Assembly (NCBI RefSeq): GCF_011764485.1
Contig: NZ_AP022848.1
Span: forward strand, 3,252,001-3,316,000
Length of the DNA: 64,000 bases
Origin: Bosea sp. ANAM02
Lineage (GTDB): Bacteria > Pseudomonadota > Alphaproteobacteria > Rhizobiales > Beijerinckiaceae
Direction: 5' to 3'
Positions 44,229 to 62,507 of the stretch are shown here, piece by piece (position 1 is the first letter of the stretch; each line of letters begins with the position of its first letter). A program made the position numbers and the translations under genes. The notes below the pieces were generated by a model. The model was not told where the DNA came from. It did no database searches and was given only the letters and a program-made list of their open reading frames with translations.

Positions 44229-44309
44229 ATGAATCAAGCCGCAAAGCCCCTGGCCTGGGACGATTTCCGCCTGATCAAGACGGAAATGGCGAGTTTCGAC
44301 AGGCGGTAA
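44229..44309 (+). pseudogene. Displaced 5' end of the LysR-type regulator gene
   Basis: ATG 44229 after AGAGTGAGCGG begins MNQAAKPLAWDDFRLIK, then leaves the regulator frame into element DNA and stops at 44307-44309. Residues KPLAWDDFRLIK are those of the LysR protein at 61545. This is the original start region of that gene, left behind at the left junction. Confidence 0.85.
44256..44279 (+). repeat. attL core
   Basis: 24-bp copy identical to 61575-61598. It encodes WDDFRLIK of the LysR protein. Flanking bases diverge on both sides, so crossover occurred within these 24 bp. Confidence 0.9.
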
Positions 44310-44361
44310 CTGCGCACCATTCTGCGCCTATCTACCGGCGCAGATTGACTTTTTTCATTTT

Positions 44362-44392
44362 AGTCTGCATGTACCTGCACAGACCTGCACAG
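44362..44392 (+). repeat. Candidate integrase arm-type sites (left)
   Basis: AGTCTGCATGTACCTGC (44362-44378) overlapping two tandem ACCTGCACAG copies (44373-44382 and 44383-44392). A matching 17-mer lies at 45758-45774 beyond the integrase gene. Position between attL and int fits arm-binding sites of a tyrosine recombinase. Confidence 0.55.
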
Positions 44393-44433
44393 GCAGGATT
44401 TTGGACAGATAGTAGACGACAGGAAAAACGACC

Positions 44434-45693
44434 ATGGCGCGGAAGCTGAAGGAAGCCGAGCTGACCACGCGCAATGCGCGGACCAAATTGCCGGCGCAGG
44501 CCAAGCCATATTGGCGGCGCGTGGATGCCGAAATCCATATCGGCTACCGCAAGGGCAAGCGCTCCGGCGTGTGGGTCGTCCGTTGGGCCATCGGCAACGG
44601 CTACCGGCAAGAGACGGTCGGCAACGCTGACGACGTGACCAGCGTCGGCACCCTCACCCACGATCAGGCGGTCAGGCGCGGCGTTGAGATCGTCGAGCAG
44701 GCCCGCAAGGATGAAGCTGCGGCAGCGGCCGGCCCGATCGAGACGGTGGAGTCGGCCGTCCGCTCCTATATCGAGATGCGCGACGCCCGTGACAGTAGGC
44801 GGCGCGGCCGGACCGTGAAGAGCGATGCCCATACGAGGCTGACGCGCCATGTCCTCTCGCACAAGATCGCCGCCGTTAAGCTGCACAATCTGACGCCCGC
44901 CGACGTGTTGGCGTGGCAAGGCGGGCTGACCAGCCTGAAGGAGACGACGCAGGTCCGCTTATGGAGCGACCTGCGCGCCGCGCTACTGGCCAAGGACTGC
45001 AAGGTGAAGCTGCCGAAGCGCGATGACGGTGATCGCGACGAGTATGTCGAGACGGCCCGCGAGGGCCAAATCCTGACCGATGCGCAGGTCTTCGCGATCG
45101 TCGCCAAAGCGCTCGAATACGATCGGGACTTCGGCCGGCTCGTGTCCGTTCTCGCGGCGACGGGCGCGCGGCTTAGCCAAGTGGTCCGCCTCAAGGTCAG
45201 CGATTTTCAGCCCGATATCTCACGCCTGACCGTTCCGACCAGCCGCAAGGGCAGTCAGCGCAACAAACTGCCCTCAATCAACGTGGTGCTCGCGCCGACC
45301 GTGCGCGACATGCTGATCGAGATCACCAAGGGACGCGGCCCGGCGGACCCCCTGCTGGAGCGCAACCGGGCGGGTAATGGCCGGCCTCTGACGCGCGGCG
45401 CGTGGAAGACGGCGAGCGAGATGACCAAGCCATGGGCGGCCGTTCTTGAGGCAGCCGGCATGAAGGATTCGGGGATCGTTCCCTACGCGCTCCGGCATTC
45501 GAGCATCGTGCGTTGGCTGCGCGGGACCACGCCTCTCGACGCCGCCAAGCAGCACGACACCAGCCTTTCAATGATCGAACGGCACTACGGGAAATTCGTG
45601 CGGTCGTCCGCCGATGATCTGGCGGCGCGCATGGCCATTTCGTTCGGCCCGGCGACGGATGGCAGCAACGTGCATCAGCTCCGCACAGCGTAG
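44434..45693 (+). CDS. Tyrosine-type site-specific integrase
   Basis: 419-aa phage-type recombinase that moves the element. An N-terminal arm-binding region (residues 20-100) and SAM-like core-binding domain (105-190) precede the catalytic domain. Catalytic residues visible: Arg246 (TGARLSQV), Arg354 in YALRHSSI (first His of the HxxR box is Tyr, a common variant), His374 (KQHDTSL) and Tyr385 (IERHYGKF). ATG 44434 lies 155 bp inside attL, the usual place. It should cut within the 24-bp core and give an attachment site inside the LysR gene. Ends directly before a GCAAGCGC-type site. Confidence 0.93.
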   Translation: MARKLKEAELTTRNARTKLPAQAKPYWRRVDAEIHIGYRKGKRSGVWVVRWAIGNGYRQETVGNADDVTSVGTLTHDQAVRRGVEIVEQARKDEAAAAAGPIETVESAVRSYIEMRDARDSRRRGRTVKSDAHTRLTRHVLSHKIAAVKLHNLTPADVLAWQGGLTSLKETTQVRLWSDLRAALLAKDCKVKLPKRDDGDRDEYVETAREGQILTDAQVFAIVAKALEYDRDFGRLVSVLAATGARLSQVVRLKVSDFQPDISRLTVPTSRKGSQRNKLPSINVVLAPTVRDMLIEITKGRGPADPLLERNRAGNGRPLTRGAWKTASEMTKPWAAVLEAAGMKDSGIVPYALRHSSIVRWLRGTTPLDAAKQHDTSLSMIERHYGKFVRSSADDLAARMAISFGPATDGSNVHQLRTA

Positions 45694-45714
45694 TTATTTG
45701 CGCTTGCAAAATAA
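45694..45714 (-). promoter_or_regulatory. GCAAGCGC-family site s1
   Basis: Reverse strand TTATTTTGCAAGCGCAAATA, an imperfect palindrome (TTATTTGC / GCAAAATAA). Sits 37 bp before a candidate -35 box at 45752. Related to sites at 46795-46813 and 52518-52560. Confidence 0.5.
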
Positions 45715-45751
45715 AGCCGAGATTATTTTCGGCTCTATCGCAAAATTCGGG

Positions 45752-45781
45752 TTGCGAAGTCTGCACGAACCTGCGTATTTG
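45752..45781 (+). promoter_or_regulatory. Candidate promoter of the HTH-proQ operon
   Basis: TTGCGA (45752-45757), 18-bp spacer, TATTTG (45776-45781). The spacer contains the integrase-arm-like 17-mer, so integrase binding could affect this promoter. Confidence 0.4.
45758..45774 (+). repeat. Candidate integrase arm-type site (right of int)
   Basis: AGTCTGCACGAACCTGC, 15 of 17 bases identical to 44362-44378. Confidence 0.5.
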
Positions 45782-45879
45782 GCACTGCGTTTCCCGACGC
45801 ACATGTCATTTGTCAGTCAGCCGGTCAGCCACAGTCATTTCATCGGGTCCGATTTCCCCTTGAGCAAGGCTGATTTGCC

Positions 45880-46266
45880 ATGTCTGAAACGACCCCGGCG
45901 CCGCTGCCGCGCCTCTCCTATACGCTGAACGAAGCCGTCCAAGTCACCGGCATCAGTCAGCGGATGCTCTACTCGCACCGCGACGCCGGCCTCGTGACCT
46001 TCGTCAAGAACGGCCGCAGCAACATCATCCTTGCCGACGACCTGCAGGCGATGCTGCACAAGCTGCGCGCGCAGTCCGTCAAGGGCCAGCCGTTCGGCCT
46101 TACGGCTCCGGCCGAACAGACGATCGAGCAGACCCCGGCCCCGGTCGTGACCGAGCCGAAGGCGGCCGAGCCCGCCAAGCCCGCCGCCCCGGCGCCTGCA
46201 AAGGCCGATTTCAGTTTGTTCATGGGCGCCGGCCGGACCACGTCCACCGGCAAGGCGGCGTCATGA
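45880..46266 (+). CDS. Helix-turn-helix protein, excisionase/AlpA-like
   Basis: 128 aa. Residues 10-60 form a MerR-like/HTH_17 DNA-binding fold (SYTLNEAVQVTGISQRMLYSHRDAGLVTF then VKNGRSNIILADDLQAML, described in parts). This is the pattern of phage excisionases and AlpA regulators. A long Pro/Ala-rich tail (residues 75-120) follows. Position next to the integrase and start of an operon with the ProQ-domain gene suggest a role in excision and/or as transcription factor. The stop overlaps the next start (ATGA). It is my best candidate for the protein that binds the GCAAGCGC sites, but that is inference. Confidence 0.7.
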   Translation: MSETTPAPLPRLSYTLNEAVQVTGISQRMLYSHRDAGLVTFVKNGRSNIILADDLQAMLHKLRAQSVKGQPFGLTAPAEQTIEQTPAPVVTEPKAAEPAKPAAPAPAKADFSLFMGAGRTTSTGKAAS

Positions 46267-46721
46267 GCGAAGCCATCAGCAACAAGGCGGCCCGCCGTGC
46301 CCGCGTCCTCGCGATGCTCGACACGTTGCAAGCGCGCTACCCGCTCGCCTTCGCCCGTCACCGGCCGGCGTTGGCGATCGGCATTTCGGATGCGATCGCA
46401 GCGGCCAATCCGGACCTGAACCGGGCTGACCTCGGCACGGCCATGTCCCTGCACTGCGCCTCGGTCACATACCTGCGCAGCGTCGCCTATGGTCCGCGCC
46501 GGGTCGATCTCTACGGCCAGCCGGGCGAGGCACCGACGGACGATGCGCGCCAGCATGCAGTGCAGCGCCTGACCGCAATGCTCGCCCGTCGAGACGGCAA
46601 GCTGATGCCCGCGCCAGCCGTCACCCCGGAAGTGGCGCAACCGGTCCCTGCACCGGCGCCGAAGGCCAGTGGCATCAACGCGGCCAAGCCCCGGCTCTCG
46701 CTCAAGAGGAACGCGGCATGA
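46263..46721 (+). CDS. ProQ/FinO-domain RNA-binding protein
   Basis: 152 aa. Residues 8-105 follow the ProQ/FinO fold: RRARVLAMLDTLQARYPLAF, then PALAIGISDAIAAANPDLNRADLGTAM and a TYLRSVAYGPRRVDLYGQPG segment, the usual YL-x-x-x-x-x-G-x-x-R-x-x-L-x-G signature. A Pro/Ala linker and basic tail (KPRLSLKRNAA) follow. Family members bind hairpins near 3' ends of RNAs and promote antisense pairing, as FinO does for plasmid F. In this element it could act on the hairpin-rich leader just downstream. Translationally coupled to the HTH gene. Confidence 0.78.
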   Translation: MSEAISNKAARRARVLAMLDTLQARYPLAFARHRPALAIGISDAIAAANPDLNRADLGTAMSLHCASVTYLRSVAYGPRRVDLYGQPGEAPTDDARQHAVQRLTAMLARRDGKLMPAPAVTPEVAQPVPAPAPKASGINAAKPRLSLKRNAA

Positions 46722-46794
46722 CCGCGCGGGCGTTGCTTCCGGAGGAACGGCAAGCCAATCAGACCGTTAAAGCGTTCCCATGCGCGGAACGACA

Positions 46795-46813
46795 TTATTT
46801 CGCAAGCGCCTAA
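46795..46813 (+). promoter_or_regulatory. GCAAGCGC-family site s2
   Basis: TTATTTCGCAAGCGCCTAA, 26 bp upstream of the candidate -35 box at 46840. Confidence 0.5.
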
Positions 46814-46839
46814 CCCATTGGAAATAAACAGAAATCGAC

Positions 46840-46868
46840 TTGAGCCAATGCCGGCGAAGCCCTAGGCT
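46840..46868 (+). promoter_or_regulatory. Candidate promoter of the primase-helicase gene
   Basis: TTGAGC (46840-46845), 17-bp spacer, TAGGCT (46863-46868). Gives a leader of about 180 nt with two hairpins. Confidence 0.4.
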
Positions 46869-46911
46869 CCGCAAATCAGGAGGCACCCGCGCTTGTCCAA
46901 GGTCGGGTCAA

Positions 46912-46944
46912 AAGAAAACCCCCCGGACATCAATCCGAGGGGGC
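46912..46944 (-). terminator. Minus-strand terminator-like hairpin
   Basis: On the minus strand CCCCC-TC-GGA ... TCC-GGGGGG followed by TTTTCTTTT. Genes on both sides run rightwards, so it may block antisense transcription or act as structure in the primase leader. Confidence 0.45.
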
Positions 46945-46962
46945 GAAGAACCGGCGCAAACC

Positions 46963-47001
46963 GGGCTACAAAAGAAGAAAATGCACATCTTCTTGTAGCC
47001 C
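46963..47001 (+). promoter_or_regulatory. Bulged 14-bp hairpin in the primase leader
   Basis: GGGCTACAA-(AA)-GAAGA pairs with TCTTC-TTGTAGCCC, nine-base loop. It ends 54 bp before the primase ATG. Candidate target of the ProQ/FinO-domain protein or a replication-control hairpin. Confidence 0.5.
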
Positions 47002-47055
47002 TCATTGCGACCAAGCACAAGCCCTAGCGGGCGTGTGCGTATACACGGGCACGAG

Positions 47056-49614
47056 ATGACTATCCCCTCTTTCGATCCTTCCCTCTTCCGTTTCGACGGC
47101 CAGCCCTCGCGCGCCGCTGCCGACCAGCTCGCCGCGAACGGGTATCAGCCTATCCCCATCACGGCCCCGGACGGGCCGAAGAGCTACGTCAACGCCGAGG
47201 GGCGTGAAGTTCCGCTTTCCCCCGGCAAGCGGCCGGAGCTTACGAACTGGCAAGTCTGCAATACGGCGCATGCTCTGGCGCACTTCACCGACGGCTGCAA
47301 TCTCGGCCTGCGCATGGGTGGCGTGTCGTTCGACCCGGCCGGCCTCTGTTCGTGGGTGGCCTTCGATGTCGATTTCGGTGCCGGCTTCGAAGCCGAAGGC
47401 AACGCGGTCCGCGACCTGCTGCGGATCAATGGGCAAGACGTTCTGATCCGCGTCGGACGGCCTCCCAAGTTCCTCGCATTGCGCCGGCTCCCGGTAGCGG
47501 ATGCCACGTCCCGCGATTTCAAATGGGAACGCGGCGCCGACGTCCTGACGATGCAACTGCTCGCGGATGGCACGAAAGCCGGACCGAAACAGTTCGTCGC
47601 CTATGGCCTTCATCCTGACCGTCTGCACGAGACGCCGCAGGGCCGCTATGAATGGCATGGCGGCGATCCGCTCAGCGTGCCGGCGGACGCGGTCCCGGTC
47701 GTCGACCTCTGGGCAGGGCTGGCCGCTATCGATCAAGCGCTCGCCCCGCTCGGCTGGAAACGTCTCGACGCCAAGCGCGAGATTTCGGAACTGCCGCCCT
47801 ATGCCGGACCGATCACGGACAAGATGATCGAGGCAGCGCAGCGCGCAGCGGAAGAGACGACCGCGGAAATCGCTGGCATGGCGGAAGGCACCGGGCGCGG
47901 TGGCGTCGCTTTTGATTTCGGCTTGCGCTTCGGCATCGTCGCCCGGTCCCGGCTGGACCTTTTGGACGACTGGCTGGCCGAACTGCCGGGCGAAGTGCAC
48001 CGGGACTTGGCGCGGGGCTGTACGGCCTCGCTCGGCCATGGACAGGAGATGCGCGCGGCGATCGTGCAATCGGAACTGAGCGCGGCCGTTGCGGCCCATG
48101 GCGGTGCGGCTGGCGTATCGAGCAATGCGACGGCGCTGACGAAGGCCGAGGAAGTGGACGGCAGCAAGTTCGCCCCGGCGCCAGCGACGCAGGAAGCCCC
48201 GGTCACGACGCCAGCAGCGACGAAGACGATCACGCCGATGACCGACCCCGACACGGGCCTCATCACGACCAAGGAAGGCGACCCGCTCACCGATATCACC
48301 GAGAACGTTTTGCTTATGGCTCGGTATCTCGGCGCCGAATTCCGTCACAATGAATGGGAGCGCAAAGACCAAGTGCGGATGCCCGGCCGTCAGGGATGGG
48401 AAAAGGTCGAGGACAGGCACAAGAACCGCCTGTTCATGAAGGCGCGCGGCGTGGGGCTAAACTACCCGGTCGGGAAGGAATTCTTTTACGACGGCCTCAA
48501 GTACGCTGCTGGCGATAACGTCGTCGACCCGATGCGCGACTATCTCGGCAACCTTCACCAGATGTTCCCGGCGGCGGTGCGCGGTCACGATAGCGGCCTC
48601 ACTCTGGAAAACTGGCTGCCGGCGATCGTCGGTGTTGAGGATACGCCCTACCACCGCGCCGTCGGTCGCTATCTGGTCGGTTCGATGATCCGGCGCATCC
48701 TCCTGCCCGGCTGCAAGTCGGACGAGATGGTCGTCTTGATTTCGAAGGATCAGGGCAAGGGCAAGTCGACGTTCTGCAAAGAGCTTTCGCCAGACCTTCC
48801 GGGCATGGAACCGGGCGCCGCATTCTGCGAAAGCCTGCCGCTCGGCGCCGATGACAAGAAAGTGTTGGAAGAGACGGGCGGCAAGGCGGTCGTGGAATTC
48901 GCCGAAATGGCCACCGTGCGCGGCAAGGAAGTCGAGCACGTCAAAAGCATGCTGTCCAAGACACATGACTCGTCGCGGCTCGCCTATGGAAGCGAGACGA
49001 CCGAGCGCGGCCGGCGCTTCATCTTCATCGGCACGACCAATGACGAGACGCCCCTGCGCGACCAGAGCGGCGATCGTCGCTTCCTCCCGGTGAAGATGCC
49101 GGAAGGCGCCGAAATCGACTTGGCGCGGTTCAGGGAGGCCAAGGAATGGCTGTTGCGCCTCGCGGTGCAGGAGCTGGTGGCATCGAACTGGACGGAGACG
49201 TTCCGCCTGCCTCGCGAGCTGTGGGGCGTCGCTGCCGAAGTGCAGGCCGCATCGCGCGGTCGCAGCAACTGTGAAGAACTGCTGATCGAGATGCTTGGCG
49301 ATGCGACGCACGGCGAAGAGCGGATCGCTGGGGCTGACGTCGAGCTGTTCCGGTCGACGCATCGCGGCAGCAAGCCGGCGCTAGGCCGGATGATGAAAGA
49401 CCTCGGCTTCGAACGTGAGCAGGGTGCCAACAAAGGCAATGGCGCCCCGCGCCCCCGTCATTGGGTGCGCATCACGGAAGGGCTGACCGGCTCCGTGCAG
49501 TTCGTCCTGTCCACGGACCGGAAAGAGCTGCGCCGGCCGCATGCGACGACGCCGGAGGCGGGCACGGGGGCGGGCGTCGCTGCTGGTGCCTTCCAACCGG
49601 GACCGGCGCCCTAG
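47056..49614 (+). CDS. Primase/polymerase - VirE-type helicase
   Basis: 852-aa replication protein. The N-terminal half is a prim-pol (bifunctional primase/polymerase) domain with catalytic acidic pair VAFDVDFG (Asp104, Asp106). A linker rich in Ala/Pro/Thr covers residues 350-405. The C-terminal half is a virulence-associated-E (D5-like) SF3-type ATPase: Walker A SKDQGKGKST (563-572, Lys570), Walker B AVVEFAEM near 612, sensor FIFIGTTNDE near 660. It resembles P4 alpha in logic: priming and unwinding in one chain. ATG 47056 chosen. The iteron array begins 87 bp after its stop. Confidence 0.87.
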   Translation: MTIPSFDPSLFRFDGQPSRAAADQLAANGYQPIPITAPDGPKSYVNAEGREVPLSPGKRPELTNWQVCNTAHALAHFTDGCNLGLRMGGVSFDPAGLCSWVAFDVDFGAGFEAEGNAVRDLLRINGQDVLIRVGRPPKFLALRRLPVADATSRDFKWERGADVLTMQLLADGTKAGPKQFVAYGLHPDRLHETPQGRYEWHGGDPLSVPADAVPVVDLWAGLAAIDQALAPLGWKRLDAKREISELPPYAGPITDKMIEAAQRAAEETTAEIAGMAEGTGRGGVAFDFGLRFGIVARSRLDLLDDWLAELPGEVHRDLARGCTASLGHGQEMRAAIVQSELSAAVAAHGGAAGVSSNATALTKAEEVDGSKFAPAPATQEAPVTTPAATKTITPMTDPDTGLITTKEGDPLTDITENVLLMARYLGAEFRHNEWERKDQVRMPGRQGWEKVEDRHKNRLFMKARGVGLNYPVGKEFFYDGLKYAAGDNVVDPMRDYLGNLHQMFPAAVRGHDSGLTLENWLPAIVGVEDTPYHRAVGRYLVGSMIRRILLPGCKSDEMVVLISKDQGKGKSTFCKELSPDLPGMEPGAAFCESLPLGADDKKVLEETGGKAVVEFAEMATVRGKEVEHVKSMLSKTHDSSRLAYGSETTERGRRFIFIGTTNDETPLRDQSGDRRFLPVKMPEGAEIDLARFREAKEWLLRLAVQELVASNWTETFRLPRELWGVAAEVQAASRGRSNCEELLIEMLGDATHGEERIAGADVELFRSTHRGSKPALGRMMKDLGFEREQGANKGNGAPRPRHWVRITEGLTGSVQFVLSTDRKELRRPHATTPEAGTGAGVAAGAFQPGPAP

Positions 49615-50613
49615 CGACGCCCAGGTACATTGATGGCCATCATGGGGCGGCGGGAGCAATCTCGCCGCCCTCTTCGTTTGCGGGGTCGGGGCGGAAGCCC
49701 GGAACCAATGAACTGCCGGGGGTCTGGCATCGGTTCCACGTCATTGGTTCCACGAAAACAGCGGTAAACACGGCACTTTCAGAGCTTGGAACTGATGGAA
49801 CCGATGGAACCGATGAATTATAGAGACTACTGGGAAAGGGCCTAGAGCTAGTGCAGTAGGTACGTGCGGCAGGTAAGCAGTACCTATCCCCAGCCCTCAT
49901 AGGCGCCACTTGGGAATCTACGGTTCCACAGTTCCACTCCCCCCATCGTACAGGCCCGTACAGCGTTACGCAGGCCGGCGCGCAGTTAAAGTAGGAACTG
50001 ATGGGTTTGGGGCTTCGGTTCCGTTCGATCTTCGGTTCCAGTCATCCGGCCTCGCTTGGTCGGTCCCGGTCTGAAAAGCAGCCCATAAAGCCGTCCTTAC
50101 GTTAACAACTTTTTTCTGCCGCCCGTAACGCCGGGTACGGTCATATCGGCTTCGCCGCACCCCCAGCAGCTCAAGAACCGCTTGCGCTATCAACCTGTAG
50201 GCCAATCATTCGTATGCATATGACCTGCCGGCCCCCCTGCCCGGCTGACCTCCTAAGACCCTCGATTCCAGCTCGCCTAAGCCCTTCCCGCCCCGATGAG
50301 GCGGAAAACGCACGTTGGCCTGCGCTGCCCTGCGTGCGTTGTCAGAGACTTAGCGCCAGCCGCCCGGCAGTCGTCCAAAAAGAGCGCCGGAATGGGCCTT
50401 TCGGGAGCCTCTGGCGGGCCGTTCTGACGCCTCGTCTGGTCGCTCTGGACCTGCTGCGGTTCGGCTGACGGCCGGCGCTGATCCGTCGATCCCTGTGAAC
50501 CAGCATAGTCCAGACAATGGACCGGGCTATCGTCCTGACGATTTCATAGGTATACCAATGAAACTAGGTGCGCGTTACGGGCGGATCGTCGCCAACAAAC
50601 CGATAGGAAACCG
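49615..50613. other. Gene-free kilobase with iteron array
   Basis: No convincing gene. The first 430 bp carry the TGGAACCGATG repeats. Also present: inverted TAGGTAC / GTACCTA (49858-49886), direct CGTACAG pair (49947-49961), an ACTTTTTTCTG tract near 50107-50117 and TATGCATA at 50213-50220. Placement between the replication gene and the phage-gene block is where a P4-type origin could lie. Confidence 0.7.
49701..50040. repeat. Iteron-like array, consensus TGGAACCRATG
   Basis: Ten or eleven copies. Plus strand: 49701 (GGAACCAATG), 49787, 49796 and 49805 (three at 9-bp steps), 49993 (AGGAACTGATG). Minus strand: 49728-49738, 49742-49752 (14-bp step), 49921-49928, 49930-49936, 50014-50022 and 50031-50040 (17-bp step). 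Two copies face three in the left cluster. The density and clustering cannot be explained by coding sequence. Confidence 0.8.
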
Positions 50614-51000
50614 ATGGTCGTTCCAATGAAGCAGCGGACCTTGCCGAAGGCTGGTCACCATGGCGGGACGCGGGTCGGCAACGGCAGCGACATCGCACCG
50701 GGCGTTGACCTTCGAAGCCGTCGCGGGCGTCGTTACAAAGAGCTGATGCTTGCCGAGGCGCAGCGCGCGGGCATCGCCAACGCCATCAGCCCGGCGCAGC
50801 TCGCCATCCTGCGCAGCCTCGCCGCCGTCGCCATCCTGATCGAGCAGGCCGAACAGACGATCGCCATGGGCACGAACGCCGCGCCGCGCGATTATCTCGA
50901 CCTCGGCCGCCGGCAGCAGCGCCTGCGCGACGAACTGGCGGCCACCACGCCCGGCGGCGGCGTCGATCCGCTGGCCGTCTGGTTGAGCAAGCAGGGCTGA
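50614..51000 (+). CDS. Phage-type small helical protein
   Basis: 128 aa. Basic N-terminus (RSRRGRRYKELMLAEAQ) and a long helical pair (SPAQLAILRSLAAVAILIEQAEQTIAMGT, then YLDLGRRQQRLRDELA; described in parts). This layout resembles small proteins encoded just upstream of terminases in rhizobial prophages, but no terminase follows here. ATG 50614 has AGGA upstream; ATG 50626 is an alternative. Starts the rightward phage-gene block; the next gene begins four bases after the stop. Confidence 0.65.
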   Translation: MVVPMKQRTLPKAGHHGGTRVGNGSDIAPGVDLRSRRGRRYKELMLAEAQRAGIANAISPAQLAILRSLAAVAILIEQAEQTIAMGTNAAPRDYLDLGRRQQRLRDELAATTPGGGVDPLAVWLSKQG

Positions 51001-51004
51001 CCCG

Positions 51005-51799
51005 ATGGCCAATCCCAACCCGACGAAGCCGCCGCCCCGTCTTCCCGTGGTCGTCAGAGGCCAGCGAAGGAAGGATCACGACCGTACCGAAGACGGCCAG
51101 CGCAGCGACACCGGCCCGGACGCTGACGACGTGTCGCCGGAAGAGCTTGCCGCCCGGACCCGCCGCGCCGCCGCCGCGACCCGACTGGCCGAATTCGGCG
51201 CCATGGACGCAGCGCTTGCCGTGCTCCGTGGTGAGATTGCGCCGCCGGACCTCGCACCAGAGACGGAGCCGGCGCGTAAGCGGCGCATCGCCCGTGTGCT
51301 GGCCGGAACGAACGCCGTTCATCTCGGCCTCATGAGCATCAGCCCGGTCTACGATCCTGAAATTCGCCTGCGTGCCATCGCGCAGCTTGAGGCAATCCGA
51401 CAGGACGACCCGGCCCTTGCCGATGGCGCGATCGACAGCTTGCTCGAACTGGACGCCGCCGATGCGCACCAGCAGGTGGCGCGGCTCGTGCTCGCCGGTC
51501 GGCTCACTGCCGCCGCTGCGACTGCGATCCAAAAGTCTCTGGACGCCCGGAACGATGCCCGGCTGCGGGACCTCTATGCGCGGTTCGTCGAGGCCGAGAA
51601 GCGCCACGCCCTTATGGCCGCAGCCCCATCACCGCAGCCCGACGCCGCACCGGCACCACAGCCCGCCGCCGCGTCGACCATGCCGGGCATGCCGGATGGC
51701 ATCGTCATCGTGCCCTTGCCGGAAGACGACGACCAGTCACCGCCCGAACCGCCAACCTTCGAAGAGTGGATGAAGAGCCATGGCGCTCCGTCTGACTGA
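51005..51799 (+). CDS. Unknown phage-block protein
   Basis: 264 aa. Charged N-terminal 50 residues, a mostly helical middle (residues 50-200; IRLRAIAQLEAIRQDDPALAD, in parts), then an Ala/Pro-rich stretch and an acidic end (LPEDDDQSPPEPPTFEEWM). In the position of a small terminase, but I cannot identify an HTH or other motif. It overlaps the following gene by 20 bp, indicating coupled translation. Confidence 0.6.
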   Translation: MANPNPTKPPPRLPVVVRGQRRKDHDRTEDGQRSDTGPDADDVSPEELAARTRRAAAATRLAEFGAMDAALAVLRGEIAPPDLAPETEPARKRRIARVLAGTNAVHLGLMSISPVYDPEIRLRAIAQLEAIRQDDPALADGAIDSLLELDAADAHQQVARLVLAGRLTAAAATAIQKSLDARNDARLRDLYARFVEAEKRHALMAAAPSPQPDAAPAPQPAAASTMPGMPDGIVIVPLPEDDDQSPPEPPTFEEWMKSHGAPSD

Positions 51800-52124
51800 A
51801 GCCCGGCTCGACCGATTGGCCGAGGCGCTGGCCGAGCACATCGCCCGGCGCGAGCCTCCGAAGCTGCCGGACATCAAGATCGCCGCCATCCCGGCCGGTC
51901 GCTTTCTGGCCAGCGAGACGGGCCGCAGCAAGACGCTGTCGCAGGCCGAGGCGGAAGCACAATTCGGCATCGCTCCCGTCGACCCGGTCCACCCCGTCAT
52001 CCCCAACTGGTCACCGCCGATCGCGCCAGCCGAGCCAGACGGGCCGCAGCCCGGCGACCCCGGTTATAGCCGCGCCCTGCACGATCCTGCGTTCCGCAGC
52101 CGCTACAATCTGGACGACGACTGA
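51780..52124 (+). CDS. Unknown small protein
   Basis: 114 aa, begins MALRLTEARLDRLAEALAEH, followed by a Pro-rich half (DPVHPVIPNWSPPIAPAEP) and the end FRSRYNLDDD. No family recognised. Overlaps both neighbours (20 bp upstream; one base downstream), typical of tightly packed phage genes. Confidence 0.55.
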   Translation: MALRLTEARLDRLAEALAEHIARREPPKLPDIKIAAIPAGRFLASETGRSKTLSQAEAEAQFGIAPVDPVHPVIPNWSPPIAPAEPDGPQPGDPGYSRALHDPAFRSRYNLDDD

Positions 52125-52519
52125 TGTTCCGCTTTCTCTCGCGCCTTCCGCGACTGTTCACCCGCCGCCGGCCCGTCATGGCCAGCGAGGAAACGCTCGC
52201 CGCAATCGAGCAGGTGCGCGCCAACATCGCGGACTTGGACGAGCTGCTCGGCATGCCCGACCCGCATCCGATGCGCCTGCACTGGACGAAGCTGGCCAAG
52301 CAGCGCGCCGAGTCCCGCCTTCACGACCTGCTGCGCCGCAAGGCCGCCGAAGAGCGCGAGGCCGCCGCCCGCAATCGCGCCCGCGCCATCCCGCTCGACG
52401 AGCAGCATGACGGCTCCCGCTTCGATCCGACGGCCACGCGGCCCCGGCCGAAAGAGGAAGTGCTGCCCCTTGGCGTGCAGGCCCCGTATTTCATCCCGCG
52501 CAATCCTTGGGACAGGTAA
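52124..52519 (+). CDS. Unknown coiled-coil protein
   Basis: 131 aa. Basic N-terminus (FRFLSRLPRLFTRRR), then a helix-rich segment (LAAIEQVRANIADLDELLG; LAKQRAESRLHDLLRRKAAEE) likely to form a coiled coil, and a polar tail ending FIPRNPWDR. No family recognised. Last gene before a promoter-operator region. Confidence 0.55.
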   Translation: MFRFLSRLPRLFTRRRPVMASEETLAAIEQVRANIADLDELLGMPDPHPMRLHWTKLAKQRAESRLHDLLRRKAAEEREAAARNRARAIPLDEQHDGSRFDPTATRPRPKEEVLPLGVQAPYFIPRNPWDR

Positions 52520-52560: not shown

Positions 52561-52571
52561 GTAACCGCTGC

Positions 52572-52601: not shown

Positions 52602-52672
52602 GCAGACATCGGCCCCAACACCCATGCGGTGCGGCCCATCTCTTCCCAAGCACCATTGCAGGAGCCGGCCCC

Positions 52673-54300: not shown

Positions 54301-54316
54301 CCGGAGCTAAAATCTG

Positions 54317-56938: not shown

Positions 56939-56967
56939 CCCTTCACCCCCAGAGAGAAACCGCGACA

Positions 56968-57624
56968 ATGACCACACTCGACTGCAGCAGATATAGCTTC
57001 AACCTCGGCGGCCAGCCCGTCCAGAGCGCCACCGTCGCCCCCATCGGCTTTGCGGCCTATGTCGCCGTGACCAACGCCGCCACCCGCGCCGGCCGCTCGC
57101 CGGAAGCCTTCGCCCGCAACGTCTTCCGTGCCCGGCTCAAGGCGCAGGTGACGCTGCAGCTCGCCAGCGGCCAGACCGGCAAGCTGGACGACGAGGCGAT
57201 CACGGCCTTGCATCCGCGCCTTGGCCTGCGCCTGAAAGCGGCGATCGACAGTTCCGCCGCCAGCGCCGGCCGGGCCGAACTGCTCGGCAACCCGGACGCG
57301 GACGGCATCACCGAGCCTATTCACGTCAAGCTGGGCGACCCCATCAAGGGAGCGGGCGACGCCGTGATCGACGAAATCGAGTTTCAGGCCAAGACGCTCG
57401 GCGAGATGGAAGACGTCATCACCGCCGATGACCGCATCGGCCAAGTGCTCGCGCTCATGAAGATTGGCCGGCCGGTGACCGGCAGCCTGTCTGCGCTGCC
57501 GTCGTGGGCCGTCGACCAGATTTCCATGGGCGATGGCCTCTTCCTGCTGACGGAGGTCTTGGGCCGTTTTTTGGACGACCCGGCCCCGGCGGAAAGCCCG
57601 GCAAGTCCCGGTGCCGAAGCCTGA
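56968..57624 (+). CDS. Tail assembly chaperone-like protein, short form
   Basis: 218 aa. Residues 115-205 (PIHVKLGDPIKGAGDAVIDE; DRIGQVLALMKIGRPVTGSL; DQISMGDGLFLLTEVLGRFL, given in parts) follow the GpE/gp41-type tail assembly chaperone pattern, in which a beta segment precedes a helical two-thirds. An N-terminal half of about 110 residues looks like a diverged duplicate (YSFNLGGQPVQSATVAPIGF). Near its end the codons CGT TTT TTG contain the slip site T TTT TTG. A -1 shift there would extend the product to 57776. Confidence 0.6.
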   Translation: MTTLDCSRYSFNLGGQPVQSATVAPIGFAAYVAVTNAATRAGRSPEAFARNVFRARLKAQVTLQLASGQTGKLDDEAITALHPRLGLRLKAAIDSSAASAGRAELLGNPDADGITEPIHVKLGDPIKGAGDAVIDEIEFQAKTLGEMEDVITADDRIGQVLALMKIGRPVTGSLSALPSWAVDQISMGDGLFLLTEVLGRFLDDPAPAESPASPGAEA

Positions 57625-57776
57625 CGGAAGAGGCTTGGTATCTCGAATACCATGTGGGCGCCTTCCCCCGCGACATCAGGATATCGCCGCTCGTGCACCG
57701 CATGAATCGCTACTTCGAAGCGCACCGCGACCGGCAGAAGTTCGAAGCCTCGATCGTCGGGGCGAAGCTGACATAG
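57567..57776 (+). CDS. -1 frame extension of the tail chaperone (programmed frameshift candidate)
   Basis: From the heptamer T TTT TTG (57567-57573, correct X XXY YYZ phase) the -1 frame stays open for 67 codons to TAG 57774-57776. It encodes a credible protein tail: LTEEAWYLEYHVGAFPRDIR, then SPLVHRMNRYFEAHRDRQKF. Tail chaperones of lambda, P2 and many other phages are made as short and frameshifted long forms. The extension has no good start of its own, so frameshifting is the simplest reading. An independent gene starting inside is the alternative. Confidence 0.6.
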   Translation, partial: FFGRPGPGGKPGKSRCRSLTEEAWYLEYHVGAFPRDIRISPLVHRMNRYFEAHRDRQKFEASIVGAKLT

Positions 57777-57815
57777 CGATTGGTCACCGGGTTCGTCGCG
57801 GTTCCCGGTGCCATA

Positions 57816-57849
57816 GGCGGGGGCAGCTTGGCCGTTAGCTGCCCCCGCC
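57816..57849 (+). terminator. Strong hairpin after the tail chaperone genes
   Basis: Perfect 13-bp stem GGCGGGGGCAGCT / AGCTGCCCCCGCC with loop TGGCCGTT. No T run follows (AACCCTTTC), so it may be a weak terminator or an RNA-stabilising end. Confidence 0.5.
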
Positions 57850-57877
57850 AACCCTTTCACCGAGCAAAGAGGAAGGC

Positions 57878-58240
57878 ATGGCTTACGACCATACCGAAGT
57901 GCGCAGCGACGGCCGAAAAGCGGCGGGAATCGGCAACCCGGACAGCTACACGGCCCATCCCGGCCATTGGTGGCGCGGGCCGATTGGCGAGCACGAGCTG
58001 AAGCTCGCACCCATCGCCTATGAGCAGCGCGACCCGGTCGCATGGCTGGCGGCCTGCAACGTCTATCGCAGTCTTTTGCCTGACGAAGCGATCGAGCGCG
58101 CGACCTATGTGCTGGACCAATACGAGCCGCCGCGCCCCGGCCCCATCCGCAGCGTCCGGGCCTCGATCGACGGCATGAGCGCCGAAGAGGTTGCCCGGTT
58201 CCGGCGCCTGACCAAGAACCGGACAGCCACGGAAGCGTGA
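57878..58240 (+). CDS. Unknown phage-block protein
   Basis: 120 aa. Trp-rich start (AHPGHWWRGPIGEHELKLAP), then a helical region (DPVAWLAACNVYRSLLPDEA; IERATYVLDQY) and a Pro-rich linker to a basic end (RFRRLTKNRTATEA). ATG 57878 follows AGAGGAAGG. Not recognised. A hairpin just before it separates it from the tail chaperone, and another follows it. Confidence 0.6.
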   Translation: MAYDHTEVRSDGRKAAGIGNPDSYTAHPGHWWRGPIGEHELKLAPIAYEQRDPVAWLAACNVYRSLLPDEAIERATYVLDQYEPPRPGPIRSVRASIDGMSAEEVARFRRLTKNRTATEA

Positions 58241-58247
58241 CCAGCAG

Positions 58248-58280
58248 AAAGCCCCCGGCTCTTGCGGCACCGAGGGCTTT
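58248..58280 (+). terminator. Hairpin after the 120-aa gene
   Basis: AAAGCCCCCGG / CCGAGGGCTTT, eleven base pairs with one mismatch, eight-base loop region. It directly follows the stop, with T-rich 3' arm. Confidence 0.6.
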
Positions 58281-58383
58281 CAGGTCGTGCCGGGGCTGTG
58301 GGGCAGCGGATGGCGACGACGTTCCTTCCATACCATCAGCGCCCGGCTCTTGCCACGGCAGGCGCGTGCGATATCTCTTTCGC

Positions 58384-58605
58384 ATGCCGTTCTCGTCGCT
58401 GACCGATCCGGTTGACCTCGCCCGCGCTCAAGCGGCCCTAGATGCTGCATGGGCTGAGGTCGCCGACATGATCCACGAGGACGGCCAAGCCGAAGCCCGG
58501 ATATGGCTGGCGCACATTGTGGCCAGTCAGGTGCATGTCGCTCTGGACGAAAGCGACCTGACGGCGCGGGCCGTGCACAAGTTCCGGGAGCGCTGGGGGC
58601 ACTAG
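58384..58605 (+). CDS. Unknown small protein
   Basis: 73 aa from ATG 58384: PFSSLTDPVDLARAQAALDA, AWAEVADMIHEDGQAEARIW, then DLTARAVHKFRERWGH. Helical with a basic end, similar in layout to small proteins common on rhizobial plasmids and prophages. The frame extends upstream through the hairpin at 58248-58280, so the internal ATG is more likely. Convergent with the next gene, whose stop overlaps its own. Confidence 0.5.
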   Translation: MPFSSLTDPVDLARAQAALDAAWAEVADMIHEDGQAEARIWLAHIVASQVHVALDESDLTARAVHKFRERWGH

Positions 58606-59111
58606 CCTTTCGCTGCGAACAGCCCGGCGACGAGCGATGCCCGATGCGCGTGCAGCTCGCCGGCCTGCTTGAGCAGGTCGGCAATCTGGTCGTCGACCTT
58701 CGCGAGCTGCGCGCGCAGCGTGGCCGAACCATCGTCAGCGACCCCGGCGATGGCCGCCTTGATTTGCGCTTTCTTGTTGCTCGATCGGGTCGTCAGATGG
58801 TCATAACGGTTGTCGGCCATCAAATAGAGGTCGACGCGCCGGCAGAACTTCCGAATGTAGACCGTCAACCAGTCGTGCGACGTCTCAACAGCGATGTGGT
58901 TGGACATGCGGCCGAGATGGTTGGTGTTCAGATTCGAGGTCCCGGCGTAGATCACCACGTTCCGGTCGGTGTCGACGAACACCATGGTTTCGCCGTTCAT
59001 CTTGCGGTCCACGATTTCGTGCTCGATCCGGCCGTCGGTGACCATGAGCGTGCCGACATGCAGGTCCGTCGGCTTGGCTTCGAAACGCTGAAAGAGCTTG
59101 CCCGGTTCCAT
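58602..59111 (-). CDS. Unknown protein with C-terminal coiled coil
   Basis: 169 aa from ATG 59111 (GGAG upstream). Beta-rich first half (DLHVGTLMVTDGRIEHEIVD; ETMVFVDTDRNVVIYAGTSN). The middle is basic (WLTVYIRKFCRRVDLYLMAD). The C-terminal coiled coil is at residues 135-165 (LRAQLAKVDDQIADLLKQAG). Not recognised. It has its own promoter region with repeated TGATA motifs, so it is regulated separately from the TA pair. Confidence 0.6.
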   Translation of the reverse strand: MEPGKLFQRFEAKPTDLHVGTLMVTDGRIEHEIVDRKMNGETMVFVDTDRNVVIYAGTSNLNTNHLGRMSNHIAVETSHDWLTVYIRKFCRRVDLYLMADNRYDHLTTRSSNKKAQIKAAIAGVADDGSATLRAQLAKVDDQIADLLKQAGELHAHRASLVAGLFAAKG

Positions 59112-59172
59112 TTTCGTAACTCCATCCGGCCAGTGCGGGCGGTGCGCAAGCCGGTAATCCCCCCGGCCTGCA

Positions 59173-59235
59173 ATCCTGATATTAATTGATATCAGAAGAG
59201 TCAACTAGTTTTAGTATCAGCTAGCGCAATTAGTA
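59173..59235 (-). promoter_or_regulatory. Operator-rich promoter of the 169-aa gene
   Basis: CTGATAT-TAATTG-ATATCAG is a perfect-arm palindrome (about 59176-59195). GCTGATACTAA occurs twice on the minus strand further upstream. A TTGACT box lies between them, with a TATCAG-like -10 17 bp on. A repressor-controlled promoter is likely. Confidence 0.5.
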
Positions 59236-59430
59236 TCAGCGCCGCCGCCACTCGCCATTGCCGCCCTTGTAGAAGCCGCGCGCCCGGCTGGTGCTGGCCG
59301 GCCCCTTCGATCCATAGAGCTGCGTCATCAGTGCATTGAATTCGCGCTTCGATACCGGCTTGTCGCGGGAATCAGCGACGGCCGGAGCGGTCAGGAGCAG
59401 GATGGCGGCGAGCGCGAGTGCGTGTTTCAT
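59236..59430 (-). CDS. Small exported protein
   Basis: 64 aa from ATG 59430: a clear Sec signal (MKHALALAAILLLTAPAVA, cleavage before DSRDK). The short basic mature part ends RARGFYKGGNGEWRRR. No Cys lipobox. Function unknown; element-encoded exported proteins can alter phage adsorption or cell-envelope stress, which is speculation here. Lies 48 bp after the toxin gene on the same strand. Confidence 0.55.
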   Translation of the reverse strand: MKHALALAAILLLTAPAVADSRDKPVSKREFNALMTQLYGSKGPASTSRARGFYKGGNGEWRRR

Positions 59431-59478
59431 CCCGGAAGCGTCGCTCGATCCGGGCTTCCGTGGCAAGCTAACTACAGA

Positions 59479-59892
59479 CTATTCGTGAAAGCGGTGTTTC
59501 CGGTCGAGCCAAATCACGAAGAAACTCTCCCCGACGAAGGCGCCGTGAACGCGCTGCTTCTTTCCGACGTCGAGGCCATAAAGTGCGACGTCAGGGCTGA
59601 GCCCGGTCGGTAGTCTGTGCTTGCTCTTGCCCTGATGCCGGTGGCACGTCTTCGTCGTTGACGTAACCTGATCCGGCGTGCGCTCGGCCATCTTAATGAG
59701 CCACGACGAAAAGCCCTGAATTTCGTCCTTGGTCCAATCAGAAAGACACTCATATGTCTTCTGATAGTATTTCATAGAGATATTGACTTTTCCATCGCTC
59801 GCAGGGGCTAGGTTGCGAACGTCGATAACTCCGGCCGTGCCACCTTTAGGAAGGCTATCAATTGCGAAGTTGTTGTATTGCTTCTTTGCCAA
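59479..59892 (-). CDS. Putative toxin partner of the Panacea antitoxin
   Basis: 137 aa. Middle helix pair (DWTKDEIQGFSSWLIKMAER), basic His-rich segment (TKTCHRHQGKSKHRLP). The end VHGAFVGESFFVIWLDRKHR matches the final strands (x-G-x-x-x-G-x-x-F-x-x-x-W-x-D-x-x-H) of small toxins found beside DUF4065 antitoxins. AT-richer than its surroundings. Starts inside the antitoxin gene (35-bp overlap), the tight coupling expected of a toxin-antitoxin pair. Target unknown; a RelE/HigB-like fold is possible. Confidence 0.6.
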   Translation of the reverse strand: MAKKQYNNFAIDSLPKGGTAGVIDVRNLAPASDGKVNISMKYYQKTYECLSDWTKDEIQGFSSWLIKMAERTPDQVTSTTKTCHRHQGKSKHRLPTGLSPDVALYGLDVGKKQRVHGAFVGESFFVIWLDRKHRFHE

Positions 59893-60349
59893 GGCGGGCC
59901 GCGTAAAAGTTGCGCATCAAGAGCTTGTCTATCGGCTGAGTGCAGCGCGCTTCCGGCGGCAGGTTGCCGCGCGCCATGTGCCACGGCGCTTCCTCGTGCG
60001 TCATCTGCTCAAGCCGCTTGGCCGTGTATTGGCCGTACTCGTTTTGAATCGCCTTGAGGAATGGAAGCAGCGCGTCCGGCAGCGCGACGGCGCGCTCTGG
60101 CGGCAGAGGTTCGAAACCCTTCCCTCGGTATTTCTGATAGACGGACGCCGACACCGGGCCGTGCGCCCATGCCTGCATGTGCTCATTGATGAGCGCGCGA
60201 TCGAAATTGGCCAGAAACCAAGCGTCGGCATAATAGACGAGCTTCTGGACCTTCAGGTGAGTAATGACCTCACCAGCGCTGCGATCCGCTGCATTGACGA
60301 ACCACGTCGCAACAGCGGTCGGCGAAACGTATGTGCCGTTATCTAGCAT
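59858..60349 (-). CDS. Panacea-domain (DUF4065, SocA-like) antitoxin
   Basis: 163 aa from ATG 60349 (GAGAGGGA upstream). The PAD1/DUF4065 signature is clear: VSPTAVATWFVNAADRSAGE, LKVQKLVYYADAWFLANF, AWAHGPVSASVYQKYRGKGF. Panacea-domain proteins neutralise many unrelated toxins encoded next to them (PanAT systems). The frame extends upstream to 60472 but without a start signal. It is the first gene of a leftward pair and is preceded by a palindrome at 60425-60438. Confidence 0.8.
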   Translation of the reverse strand: MLDNGTYVSPTAVATWFVNAADRSAGEVITHLKVQKLVYYADAWFLANFDRALINEHMQAWAHGPVSASVYQKYRGKGFEPLPPERAVALPDALLPFLKAIQNEYGQYTAKRLEQMTHEEAPWHMARGNLPPEARCTQPIDKLLMRNFYAARLGKEAIQQLRN

Positions 60350-60424
60350 TCCCTCTCGGCCTTCGCTTAGCGGGCCGCTCCCTTGCAGACACCCTTCGGC
60401 GATTCTGCACGCTATTGTCCAATC

Positions 60425-60438
60425 ACGTTTGTTAACGT
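60425..60438. promoter_or_regulatory. Palindrome upstream of the toxin-antitoxin pair
   Basis: ACGTT-TGTT-AACGT, 75 bp before the antitoxin ATG; likely operator for autoregulation. Confidence 0.4.
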
Positions 60439-60458
60439 TCGGTTCCGCACCGTCAGCG

Positions 60459-60839
60459 CTATTCCTCGCCAACCCGTCGGCGGCGCTCGGCCGGCGCCGG
60501 GTCAGTCGGGTACATGTTGGCCTTGCCGCCCGCGATCAAGGTCAGCCCTCGCATCGAAGGCGGCAGATCGGGCGGCGGGTTGCTTTTCAAGTCCGGGCAA
60601 TAGCCGCCGCACGCGAACTGTGCGTCAGCCACCGGCCGGCCGCCCTTCGATCGCGGCCGGCTTGGACACGTCGCTTGGAAACGGCTGATCAGCATTCCAA
60701 TCGTCTCGGCCGCGCCGAATTTCTCGGCCAGCTTGGCAAGGCGCGCATCGCCGTAGCGCCGGCACTTCTGACAGCGGAAGCGCAGCACGACCCACGGATA
60801 GAATTCCAGCGACGTGTGCGGGCCGGGCGGCTCATTCAC
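60459..60839 (-). CDS. Zinc-knuckle-like phage protein
   Basis: 126 aa from GTG 60839, whose start overlaps the previous stop (GTGA). A CQKCRRYGD knuckle lies near residue 25 and further Cys at CP and CGGYCPDL (residues 50-85), so a metal-binding fold is likely. Similar Cys patterns occur in unknown proteins of rhizobial prophages. Second gene of the LexA-box operon. No function assigned. Confidence 0.6.
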   Translation of the reverse strand: MNEPPGPHTSLEFYPWVVLRFRCQKCRRYGDARLAKLAEKFGAAETIGMLISRFQATCPSRPRSKGGRPVADAQFACGGYCPDLKSNPPPDLPPSMRGLTLIAGGKANMYPTDPAPAERRRRVGEE

Positions 60840-61090
60840 GATTCCTGCTCGCGCTCCGGCCGGGCGCCTTCCGAGAACAGACCGCGCAGGAAGCCGCGCG
60901 AGCATGACCGATCGGCGTCGAGCGCCAACCGCCCGCTCTCGGCCAGCAACAGCAGGTAGCTCCGTGCCAGCGCCCGAAACGCCGCCCGCTCGAATCCCTC
61001 GTGCTCTTCGATCAGGTCGGCGACGAGAGACGTGATTTCGGCGTCAATCGACGCATCCTCGACCTGCTGGTCGGCTGGCTGTGCTGACAT
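60836..61090 (-). CDS. Small helical protein, first gene of LexA-box operon
   Basis: 84 aa, acidic helical first half (DASIDAEITSLVADLIEEHE) and a second helix (RAAFRALARSYLLLLAESGR). ATG 61090 is 22 bp downstream of a LexA-type box, so transcription probably rises on DNA damage. Translationally coupled to the zinc-knuckle gene. Could trigger induction of the element; no family recognised. Confidence 0.55.
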   Translation of the reverse strand: MSAQPADQQVEDASIDAEITSLVADLIEEHEGFERAAFRALARSYLLLLAESGRLALDADRSCSRGFLRGLFSEGARPEREQES

Positions 61091-61112
61091 TTTCGCGCCC
61101 TCGGATTATGAG

Positions 61113-61127
61113 AACAGAAAGAGAACA
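61113..61127. promoter_or_regulatory. LexA (SOS) box
   Basis: GAAC-AGAAAGA-GAAC, reading GTTC-N7-GTTC on the minus strand. It matches the direct-repeat LexA box known from Rhizobium and Rhodobacter. Located between the leftward operon (start 61090) and the rightward gene (start 61151), so it could control both. Confidence 0.7.
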
Positions 61128-61150
61128 TAGACAGCAGAGAGTCAACCCGG

Positions 61151-61396
61151 ATGAAATTCCCGCTGCGGGTCAGACGAGGCGCGCAATGCTACCGGATCGA
61201 AGATGCGTGGGGCCGTAGCGTCGTCCTGCACTTCGAAAGCGATCCTGCCCGCGCCGAGGCCATGGGCCGCTGGACCGAGCAGGAGGCGCGGGAGTTGGCC
61301 ACCTACACCGCCCGGATGCTGACCAATGCGCGGGCCGAACAGCTCTATCTATGGAACCTCACGGACCCGGCTTCGAAAGGTTACCGGCGGCGCTAG
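61151..61396 (+). CDS. Unknown small protein near right end of the element
   Basis: 81 aa: FPLRVRRGAQCYRIEDAWGR, VVLHFESDPARAEAMGRWTE, then LYLWNLTDPASKGYRRR. The beta-then-helix layout is seen in small unknown phage proteins. ATG 61151 is 23 bp from the LexA box in the divergent direction, so it may also be damage-induced. No family recognised. Confidence 0.55.
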   Translation: MKFPLRVRRGAQCYRIEDAWGRSVVLHFESDPARAEAMGRWTEQEARELATYTARMLTNARAEQLYLWNLTDPASKGYRRR

Positions 61397-61544
61397 ACGA
61401 TTCGCGGCGGTCCGGTTGCGTCGCTGTGCACCCCGCCCATTGCCAGCAGCGCGGCGCCAGCTCCAAATGCGGAGTGAGAAACCGCTCGCTAAAAAGGCGT
61501 TCTTTACGAATAGCAGATGATTTTCCATCAAGAAAGCTAAGCCA

Positions 61545-62507
61545 TTGAATTCAAATGCACAAAAACCGCTAGCATGGGACGATTTCCGCCTGATCAAGGC
61601 GATCGCCGACAAGCGGGCGCTGCCGGCCGCCGCGGCAGCGCTCGGCGTCAATCACTCGACGGTGTTCCGCCGCCTCGGCCAGATCGAGGAGGCGCTCGGC
61701 ACCCGCCTGTTCGAGCGCCATCGCAGCGGCTATGTCGCGACGCCGGCCGGCGAGGAGATGATCCAGCTCGCCGCCCGCGTCGACGACGACATCACCGCCT
61801 TCGCCCGCAAGCTAGCCGGACAGGAGATCAAGCCGGCCGGCGAATTGCGCGTCGCCACCAATGACTCACTGCTGGTCGACCTGCTGACGCCGCTCTTCGC
61901 GCGCTTCCTCGGGCAATGCCCGGATATCCGGCTCGATATCCTGATCGGCAACCAGGCTGCCAATCTCTCCAAGCGCGACGCCGATGTCGCGATCCGCGCC
62001 ACCGACAATCCTCCGGAGACGCTGATCGGCCGCAAGCCGGCCCGTATCGCCTGGGCGCTCTACGGCCGGGCCGCCGATTTTCCCGATGCGGAGCCGCCCC
62101 TCCGCGAGAGCCTGTGGGAGCGTAGCTGGGTTTCGCTCGGCGATCAGTTCACCATGCTGAGCGCGGTGCGCTATCTCGCCCGCCATGTCGCGCCGGAGCG
62201 GGTCGTCTACAGGCTCAATACCGTTCTCGGCCTCGCTGAAGCCGTCGAGGCCGGGATCGGCGTCGGCTTCCTGCCCTGCTTCATCGGCGACACGCGCCCT
62301 GCCCTCAGGCGGTTGGGCGAGCCCGATCCGGATCTTGCCGCAGATCTCTGGCTCCTCACCCATCCGGACATGCGGCATACGCCCCGGGTCAGGCTCTTCC
62401 TCAATTTCCTCGCCGCCGAGCTTGGGCGGCTGAAGCCGCTGGTCGAGGGTGATCGTCCGATCGGACGCAACAGCGCGACCGACGCCTCGGCGGCCGAGAC
62501 CGCCTGA
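61545..62507 (+). CDS. LysR-family regulator, 5' end rebuilt by the element
   Basis: 320 aa. HTH at residues 12-70 (LPAAAAALGVNHSTVFRRLG), then the LysR effector domain (LRVATNDSLLVDLLTPLFAR; AVEAGIGVGFLPCFIGD). The gene starts at TTG 61545 inside element DNA (MNSNAQKPLA) and enters host sequence at attR. The original host start survives at 44229 (MNQAAKPLA). It probably controlled the DoxX and ring-cleaving dioxygenase genes, from which it is now 17 kb away, and its promoter now comes from the element. Confidence 0.88.
   Translation: MNSNAQKPLAWDDFRLIKAIADKRALPAAAAALGVNHSTVFRRLGQIEEALGTRLFERHRSGYVATPAGEEMIQLAARVDDDITAFARKLAGQEIKPAGELRVATNDSLLVDLLTPLFARFLGQCPDIRLDILIGNQAANLSKRDADVAIRATDNPPETLIGRKPARIAWALYGRAADFPDAEPPLRESLWERSWVSLGDQFTMLSAVRYLARHVAPERVVYRLNTVLGLAEAVEAGIGVGFLPCFIGDTRPALRRLGEPDPDLAADLWLLTHPDMRHTPRVRLFLNFLAAELGRLKPLVEGDRPIGRNSATDASAAETA
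61575..61598 (+). repeat. attR core
   Basis: 24-bp copy identical to 44256-44279, in frame with the LysR gene (WDDFRLIK). Confidence 0.9.

Follow-up and report, generated by a model that had tools for sequence, protein, structure and literature searches.

Insertion of an integrative element into the 5′ end of a LysR-type gene

The DNA analysed here is a 64,000 bp window from Bosea sp. ANAM02 (positions 3252001–3316000 of contig 1, in a host genome of 5.65 Mb and two contigs), in which the original start of a LysR-type regulator gene is separated from the body of that gene by a ~17.3 kb element that encodes a tyrosine integrase. The att sites and junction features, doxX, the regulator, the integrase and the HTH_17 and VapE-like genes are on the + strand, and features of this locus are numbered by window position. 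The element is bounded by two exact 24 bp copies of TGGGACGATTTCCGCCTGATCAAG, and the identical cores reported at both ends in a preliminary description of this DNA were confirmed at 44256–44279 (attL) and 61575–61598 (attR). A whole-genome search allowing up to three mismatches returned just three copies of TGGGACGATTTCCGCCTGATCAAG, namely the att pair and one inside a LysR paralog, and the core is therefore not a common genomic repeat, an alternative that the preliminary description had itself raised.

At the left junction the old start, ATG at 44229, reads MNQAAKPLAWDDFRLIKTEMASFDRR, enters element DNA and reaches a stop at 44307–44309, and from its translation and homologous starts we identified 44229–44309 as a stub of 26 codons plus stop. 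At the right junction the element supplies TTG AAT TCA AAT GCA CAA AAA CCG CTA GCA (61545–61574; M N S N A Q K P L A), which continues in frame through the core for 320 codons and restores a LysR-type regulator of 320 amino acids (61545–62507; Pfam HTH_1, E 2e-14; LysR_substrate, E 2.7e-27). An att pair in the 5′ part of a gene, together with an element-supplied in-frame 5′ end, is the arrangement that marks 5′-end-restoring elements.

Relatives provide the uninterrupted site. We searched for the LysR protein in 61 genomes, all of which held some match, and fetched the best 29 loci outside this genome (L005–L033). In 29/29 of these congeneric orthologs the core runs straight into the LysR body, with doxX just upstream in 27/29 and a dioxygenase-like gene upstream in 28/29, so that the check suggested in the preliminary description, a search of relatives for an uninterrupted LysR gene after doxX, did not refute it. 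Since the site is uninterrupted in every ortholog, ATG 44229 is the old start and TTG the present one, and the proposal that the element integrated into the LysR 5′ end and brought a replacement for it, with its own start codon and upstream sequence, is supported. Within the 60 bases read, 6/29 orthologs begin MNQAA and 1/29 MNQSA, and one TGA falls within the matched stretch in three orthologs (L024, L026 and L027). Two close core copies occur only in this genome among 67 genus genomes searched, 65 of which have a core match; the other 66 contain neither a nearby second core copy nor a similar right end, and a core-pattern search of viral contigs likewise gave no other element aimed at a LysR gene.

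The element-supplied codons and expression of the restored gene

The four codons directly before the right core (61563–61574) encode K-P-L-A, and comparison of AAA CCG CTA GCA with AAG CCC CTG GCC in the host copy verified that the two differ at the four third positions only. When four substitutions are placed in 12 bases, KPLA is kept by 51 of 40,095 placements (chance 0.0013). The preliminary description had taken this as a sign of selection on the protein, and while the wobble-only difference and its low chance probability stand, this is a single case picked afterwards and searches for another LysR-targeting element found none, so that the pattern fits either protein constraint or capture from an unsampled relative, and selection is weakly supported. 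Capture would mean that the element took up the end of a LysR gene from an unsampled host that already had these codons, with no selection involved. KPLA is present in 6/29 orthologs in several codon sets, so that a donor could have had a further set (P occupies the second place in 10/29); but the codon set of the element is found in 0/29 orthologs and none of them uses CTA or GCA for the final L and A, which still leaves room for an unsampled donor. We place capture only a little short of even odds. Orthologs differ from one another in the sequence ahead of the core, and the new N-terminus itself may therefore be of little consequence.

It is also conceivable, if rather improbable, that the insertion is simply a LysR knockout, with the restored frame unexpressed or non-functional and the 5′ likeness a remnant of captured host DNA. 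We found no sigma-70-like consensus promoter in 61100–61650, the start is TTG, and by eye it is not preceded by a strong ribosome site, all of which would suit a silent gene. The 320-codon frame is none-the-less intact, and its differences are mostly synonymous and within the range of uninterrupted genes (59 synonymous and 12 nonsynonymous codon differences from L005, against 45–77 and 11–25 in uninterrupted pairs), although the insertion may be recent; further, chance would seldom make all four of the K-P-L-A codon changes synonymous. GC content falls to 0.389 over the final 90 bp of the element, compared with 0.652 for the element, and a promoter could lie in this AT-rich stretch, although none matched the consensus. 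With the native upstream region now 17.3 kb from the regulator body, altered induction of the regulator is plausible.

The integrase and its tRNA-targeting relatives

The integrase gene (44434–45693) was identified by a PHROG integrase match (E 4.7e-19), with a Pfam Phage_integrase match below cut-off (E 3.3e-4). R246, K272, R354 and Y385 are invariant in seven aligned integrase sequences, which identifies the protein as a tyrosine integrase; these are residues of the catalytic motif, with Y351 occupying the slot where the usual motif has His. Sequence reading showed a tandem 10-mer, ACCTGCACAG x2, 5′ of the integrase (44373–44392), and integrase relatives carry tandem TATTTGACG-like repeats at the matching position, making the ACCTGCACAG repeat a possible pair of arm-type sites.

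Relatives of the integrase, ~32–50% identical, were found in 9/67 genus genomes (E ≤1e-3), in 13/397 order and 2/385 class genomes (E ≤1e-30), and in 18/394 and 20/391 genomes of two other families (E ≤1e-50), each count including this genome, as well as in two named records, Aquamicrobium defluvii and Bradyrhizobium murdochi. There were none in viral contigs, while searches of phages and plasmids each returned one match, weak in the phages (28% identity, 43% covered) and of similar identity in the plasmids (28%, 91% covered).

We scored 54 integrase loci for an upstream tRNA 3′ half, having dropped L040, L041, L042, L044 and L045 (weak or partial integrase) and left out L043, which is the second part of a split integrase in the G024 region. 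A tRNA 3′ half was present at ≥84% identity in 50/54 loci (45 Glu, 5 Arg), compared with a shuffled maximum of 58%; among the remaining four, L157 has a degenerate tRNA-Glu-like sequence (55%), and L039, L137 and L156 are not tRNA. The likeness to tRNA-targeting elements remarked on earlier thus goes further than proposed, as the integrase relatives themselves mostly target tRNA genes. Our element has a best upstream tRNA 3′-half match of 48%, inside the shuffled range, and its own target is not a tRNA gene; the tRNA-Glu(CTC) site of the genome is present as a single copy and therefore has no att duplication. Both att copies were found at the tRNA in 11/18 relative regions, with an intact far-end tRNA detected by ARAGORN in 10/11 (not G016), and ten further relative regions gave four more full tRNA att pairs and one partial. 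The att pairs of these tRNA-targeting relatives end just past the 7 nt anticodon loop. A midpoint-rooted tree of 18 integrases groups ours with 11 others, all of them tRNA-Glu, in a clade of 12 rows supported at 100/100; the rows outside it are five Arg and one Glu. As 50/54 relatives adjoin a tRNA 3′ half, with the identity block ending at the anticodon loop, descent of the element from tRNA-Glu elements is probable.

Likeness of the LysR site to an anticodon arm

The tRNA-Glu block ends in TTTTCGCC-GTGAGAG-GG, and the LysR site reads TTTCCGCC-TGATCAA-GGCG, with the block ending one base past the seven. CGCC-TGATCAA-GGCG (61587–61601) is thus an inverted repeat resembling an anticodon arm around a putative 7 bp overlap (61591–61597), the corresponding crossover region in attL being predicted at 44272–44278 from alignment to the anticodon loops of tRNA-targeting relatives. 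Using a matrix built from six tRNA-Glu sites (two alike) with the overlap omitted, the LysR site scored 10.1 (~1e-4 per position), against 4.6 for the site in the paralog, whose arms are CGGC and GGCC; a score of 10.1 was reached at 41/443,376 positions of congener DNA, true tRNA sites included. Scores at the equivalent site ranged from 0.0 to 11.0 across the 29 orthologs, and therefore not every species offers the LysR site.

The three clear non-tRNA relatives (G024, G1040 and G1242) provided a test of this likeness, and the same layout, CGCC-N7-GGCG, is present in 3/3, at most 240 bp from the integrase; its background in other fetched DNA, 45 occurrences among 275,790 positions, predicts ~0.04 per 240 bp. 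In the congener G024, which has the split integrase, the 3′ end of an EamA gene holds a 16 bp att pair, TCGCC-GTCAGCC-GGCG (TCGCCGTCAGCCGGCG); in G1040 a 22 bp att pair, CCGCC-TCGAAAG-GGCGGCCATT, follows a DUF1127 gene; and G1242 carries CGCC-TATCAAA-GGCG, with its right end not found. That the likeness at the LysR site is coincidental, with the integrase having changed specificity through its own mutations and the site unrelated to an anticodon arm, seems unlikely to us. The repeat is frequent in the background (17 times in the 64 kb window, and the 45 given above for other positions), which makes any one match weak, but at the LysR site it occupies the place that the anticodon arm has in relatives, where the identity block ends, and it recurs in all three non-tRNA sites, in two of them within measured att blocks.

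Two further features of these relatives were observed. The G024 element (L055, ~8940–8955 and 15954, joined region) adds three residues to the EamA transporter, changing VSRR to VSRRSNS, and the G1040 element (L159, ~5164–5185 and 15811, joined region) lies in an inverted repeat and adds a T run after the repeat on the left, which could complete a terminator.

The right-end motif and the TTG start codon

The TTG start lies within a right-end motif, CTAAGCCATTGAATTC (61537–61552), which matches 14/16 positions of the consensus of relatives' right ends, near CTAAGTCATTGATTT, a consensus drawn from the same ends that it scores. With our own included, 10/16 right ends score at least 14 of 16 and six score 11–13, while none of 2000 random 50-mers from the window reach 14 and three reach 13. 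Here TTG is placed 46 bases before the putative overlap; in 11/15 relatives this distance is 47 or 48 (with CTG in one), and in four it is 58. A TTG at -46 fits the LysR frame, -47 and -48 would not, and -58 would. Our reading of these positions is that the regulator took its start codon from a putative recombination motif.

A right-end-like motif, CTAAGTGCTTGATTTTG, was also seen in G202 (L104, ~1200–1260) directly left of the tRNA-Glu block that precedes the integrase, as if a tandem second element abuts there.

Proposed mechanism and relation to known systems

These observations are best explained together, at a probability of roughly 80%, by integration into the LysR gene with restoration of its 5′ end, by an integrase derived from tRNA-Glu elements acting on a target that mimics an anticodon arm, with a start codon recruited from the element. 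The element would have integrated by tyrosine-integrase recombination into codons 15–17 of the chromosomal gene, with strand exchange at TGATCAA. Its attachment site carries upstream DNA, the TTG, six non-homologous codons (start included), the four synonymous codons and the identical core, a substitute 5′ end through which the right junction again encodes a full regulator, while the old start remains as the 26-codon stub. The integrase would come from a family using the tRNA-Glu anticodon arm, for which the LysR gene could serve as a target because its DNA has the same layout of CGCC, 7 bp overlap and GGCG; the start codon would have been taken from the right-end motif, at a spacing that suits the frame. 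Expression of the regulator would now depend on element DNA, and excision would bring back the native doxX-LysR order.

Several points weigh against this explanation. The crossover position at TGATCAA is placed by alignment with relatives, and the arm score of 10.1 is far under those of real tRNA-Glu sites (24.0–29.5) and is reached at 11/127,948 window positions, the LysR site included. The right arm of the element itself is GACG, so attL is without the full CGCC-N7-GGCG repeat, and a second CGCCTGATCAAGGCG is present in the genome, at 2790348. At the right end, the six lower motif scores are within the random range, under a consensus taken from those same ends, and four relatives place their TTG at -58. 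Likewise, the inner fork placing our integrase within its clade is weakly supported (92/96).

Elements that give a target gene a new 5′ end are already known. IMEVchUSA3 at dusA provides a new promoter and an altered N-terminus after integration at the 5′ end (PMC8409611), as does SXT at prfC (as cited within PMC8409611), and dusA islands replace the dusA 5′ end (Farrugia et al. 2015; PMC4482086). The SXT target is a release factor whereas ours is a transcription regulator; the dusA islands differ in target gene, with restoration tested by experiment there but read from sequence here. Anticodon loop and stem have been likened to a 7 bp overlap and core sites (PMC8371274, citing Campbell 2003), anticodon-centred att sites are a counted class (PMC4383910), and attP usually bears replacement sequence (PMC10111431). 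In HE-PICI, the integrase of a tRNA-Phe group is extremely similar to that of a capsid-gene-targeting group (PMC10111431), and a switch between tRNA and protein-gene targets is therefore already on record in that paper; in the capsid-gene group the interrupted late gene is unrestored until excision, whereas here the frame is restored.

Also close to our element are tRNA-Glu elements such as G030, G392 and G723, which resemble it in integrase (~39–50% identity), in an attL block 185–221 bp upstream of the integrase and, in most, in a similar right-end motif. They restore a tRNA 3′ end reading into the element with a base-for-base match and hence differ from our element, which restores the 5′ end of a protein gene reading outwards, with changes at third positions. 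What is new here is a regulator as the target, an arm mimic common to three other non-tRNA sites and a start codon inside an element-end motif; a literature search gave no report of a LysR gene as such a target, though only part of the matches were looked at and absence in print is not claimed.

The locus is a naturally occurring illustration of how elements that target tRNA genes may gain protein-gene targets, in which the anticodon-stem arms seem important while the seven bases between them and the identity of the gene do not; four natural non-tRNA sites make this idea directly testable. The insertion should rewire the regulator beside apparent stress or detoxification genes. Very tentatively, and with the odds against it, this integrase family might be able to move to unrelated genes with CGCC-N7-GGCG around any seven bases, and here a recombination motif might have become the start codon of a host regulator to give a reversible switch, under doxX operon control when excised and element control when integrated.

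Element cargo and host neighbours

Within the element, a HTH_17 protein gene (45880–46266; Pfam PF12728, E 5.2e-5, below cut-off) encodes a possible excisionase and is adjoined by a gene for a ProQ/FinO-family RNA-binding protein (46263–46721), and a VapE-like replication protein is encoded at 47005–49614 (Pfam PF05272, E 1.8e-43). Other products include weakly phage-like proteins (HK97-type protease, tail) and a SocA/Panacea-like antitoxin, whose gene together with a small phrog_8366 gene of unknown function (59479–60472) likely forms a toxin-antitoxin pair. A PHROGs scan of 20 element open reading frames (ORFs), with at least six small ORFs outside the scan, recognised no large terminase, portal or capsid, and Pfam scans of selected ORFs turned up no relaxase or conjugation genes, for which no dedicated search was made; a satellite, a defective phage and some other kind of integrative element are all possible identities for it.

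Cargo is hardly common to the tRNA relatives (18 regions), where besides the integrase the HTH_17 protein matches G216 (39%, 56 aa), and the LysR protein has a weak match (23%) in the G024 region. VapE relatives were found in 1/67 genus genomes, that of our own strain, and in no viral contigs. Two small ORFs at the right end (60459–61090) match the right end of a tRNA-Arg element in the congener G067 (75% over 87 aa and 83% over 58 aa), which suggests exchange of end modules between the two elements.

Upstream of the regulator, doxX (43756–44181; Pfam PF07681, E 8.4e-16) is a conserved host neighbour, and is accompanied by genes for a glyoxalase-superfamily protein and an esterase related to the MhqD model but below cut-off. 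Such neighbours may have a link to quinone detoxification (mhq genes). The esterase-like and glyoxalase-superfamily genes are divergent to doxX, and together they form a conserved cluster (41891–44181) of possible regulator targets.

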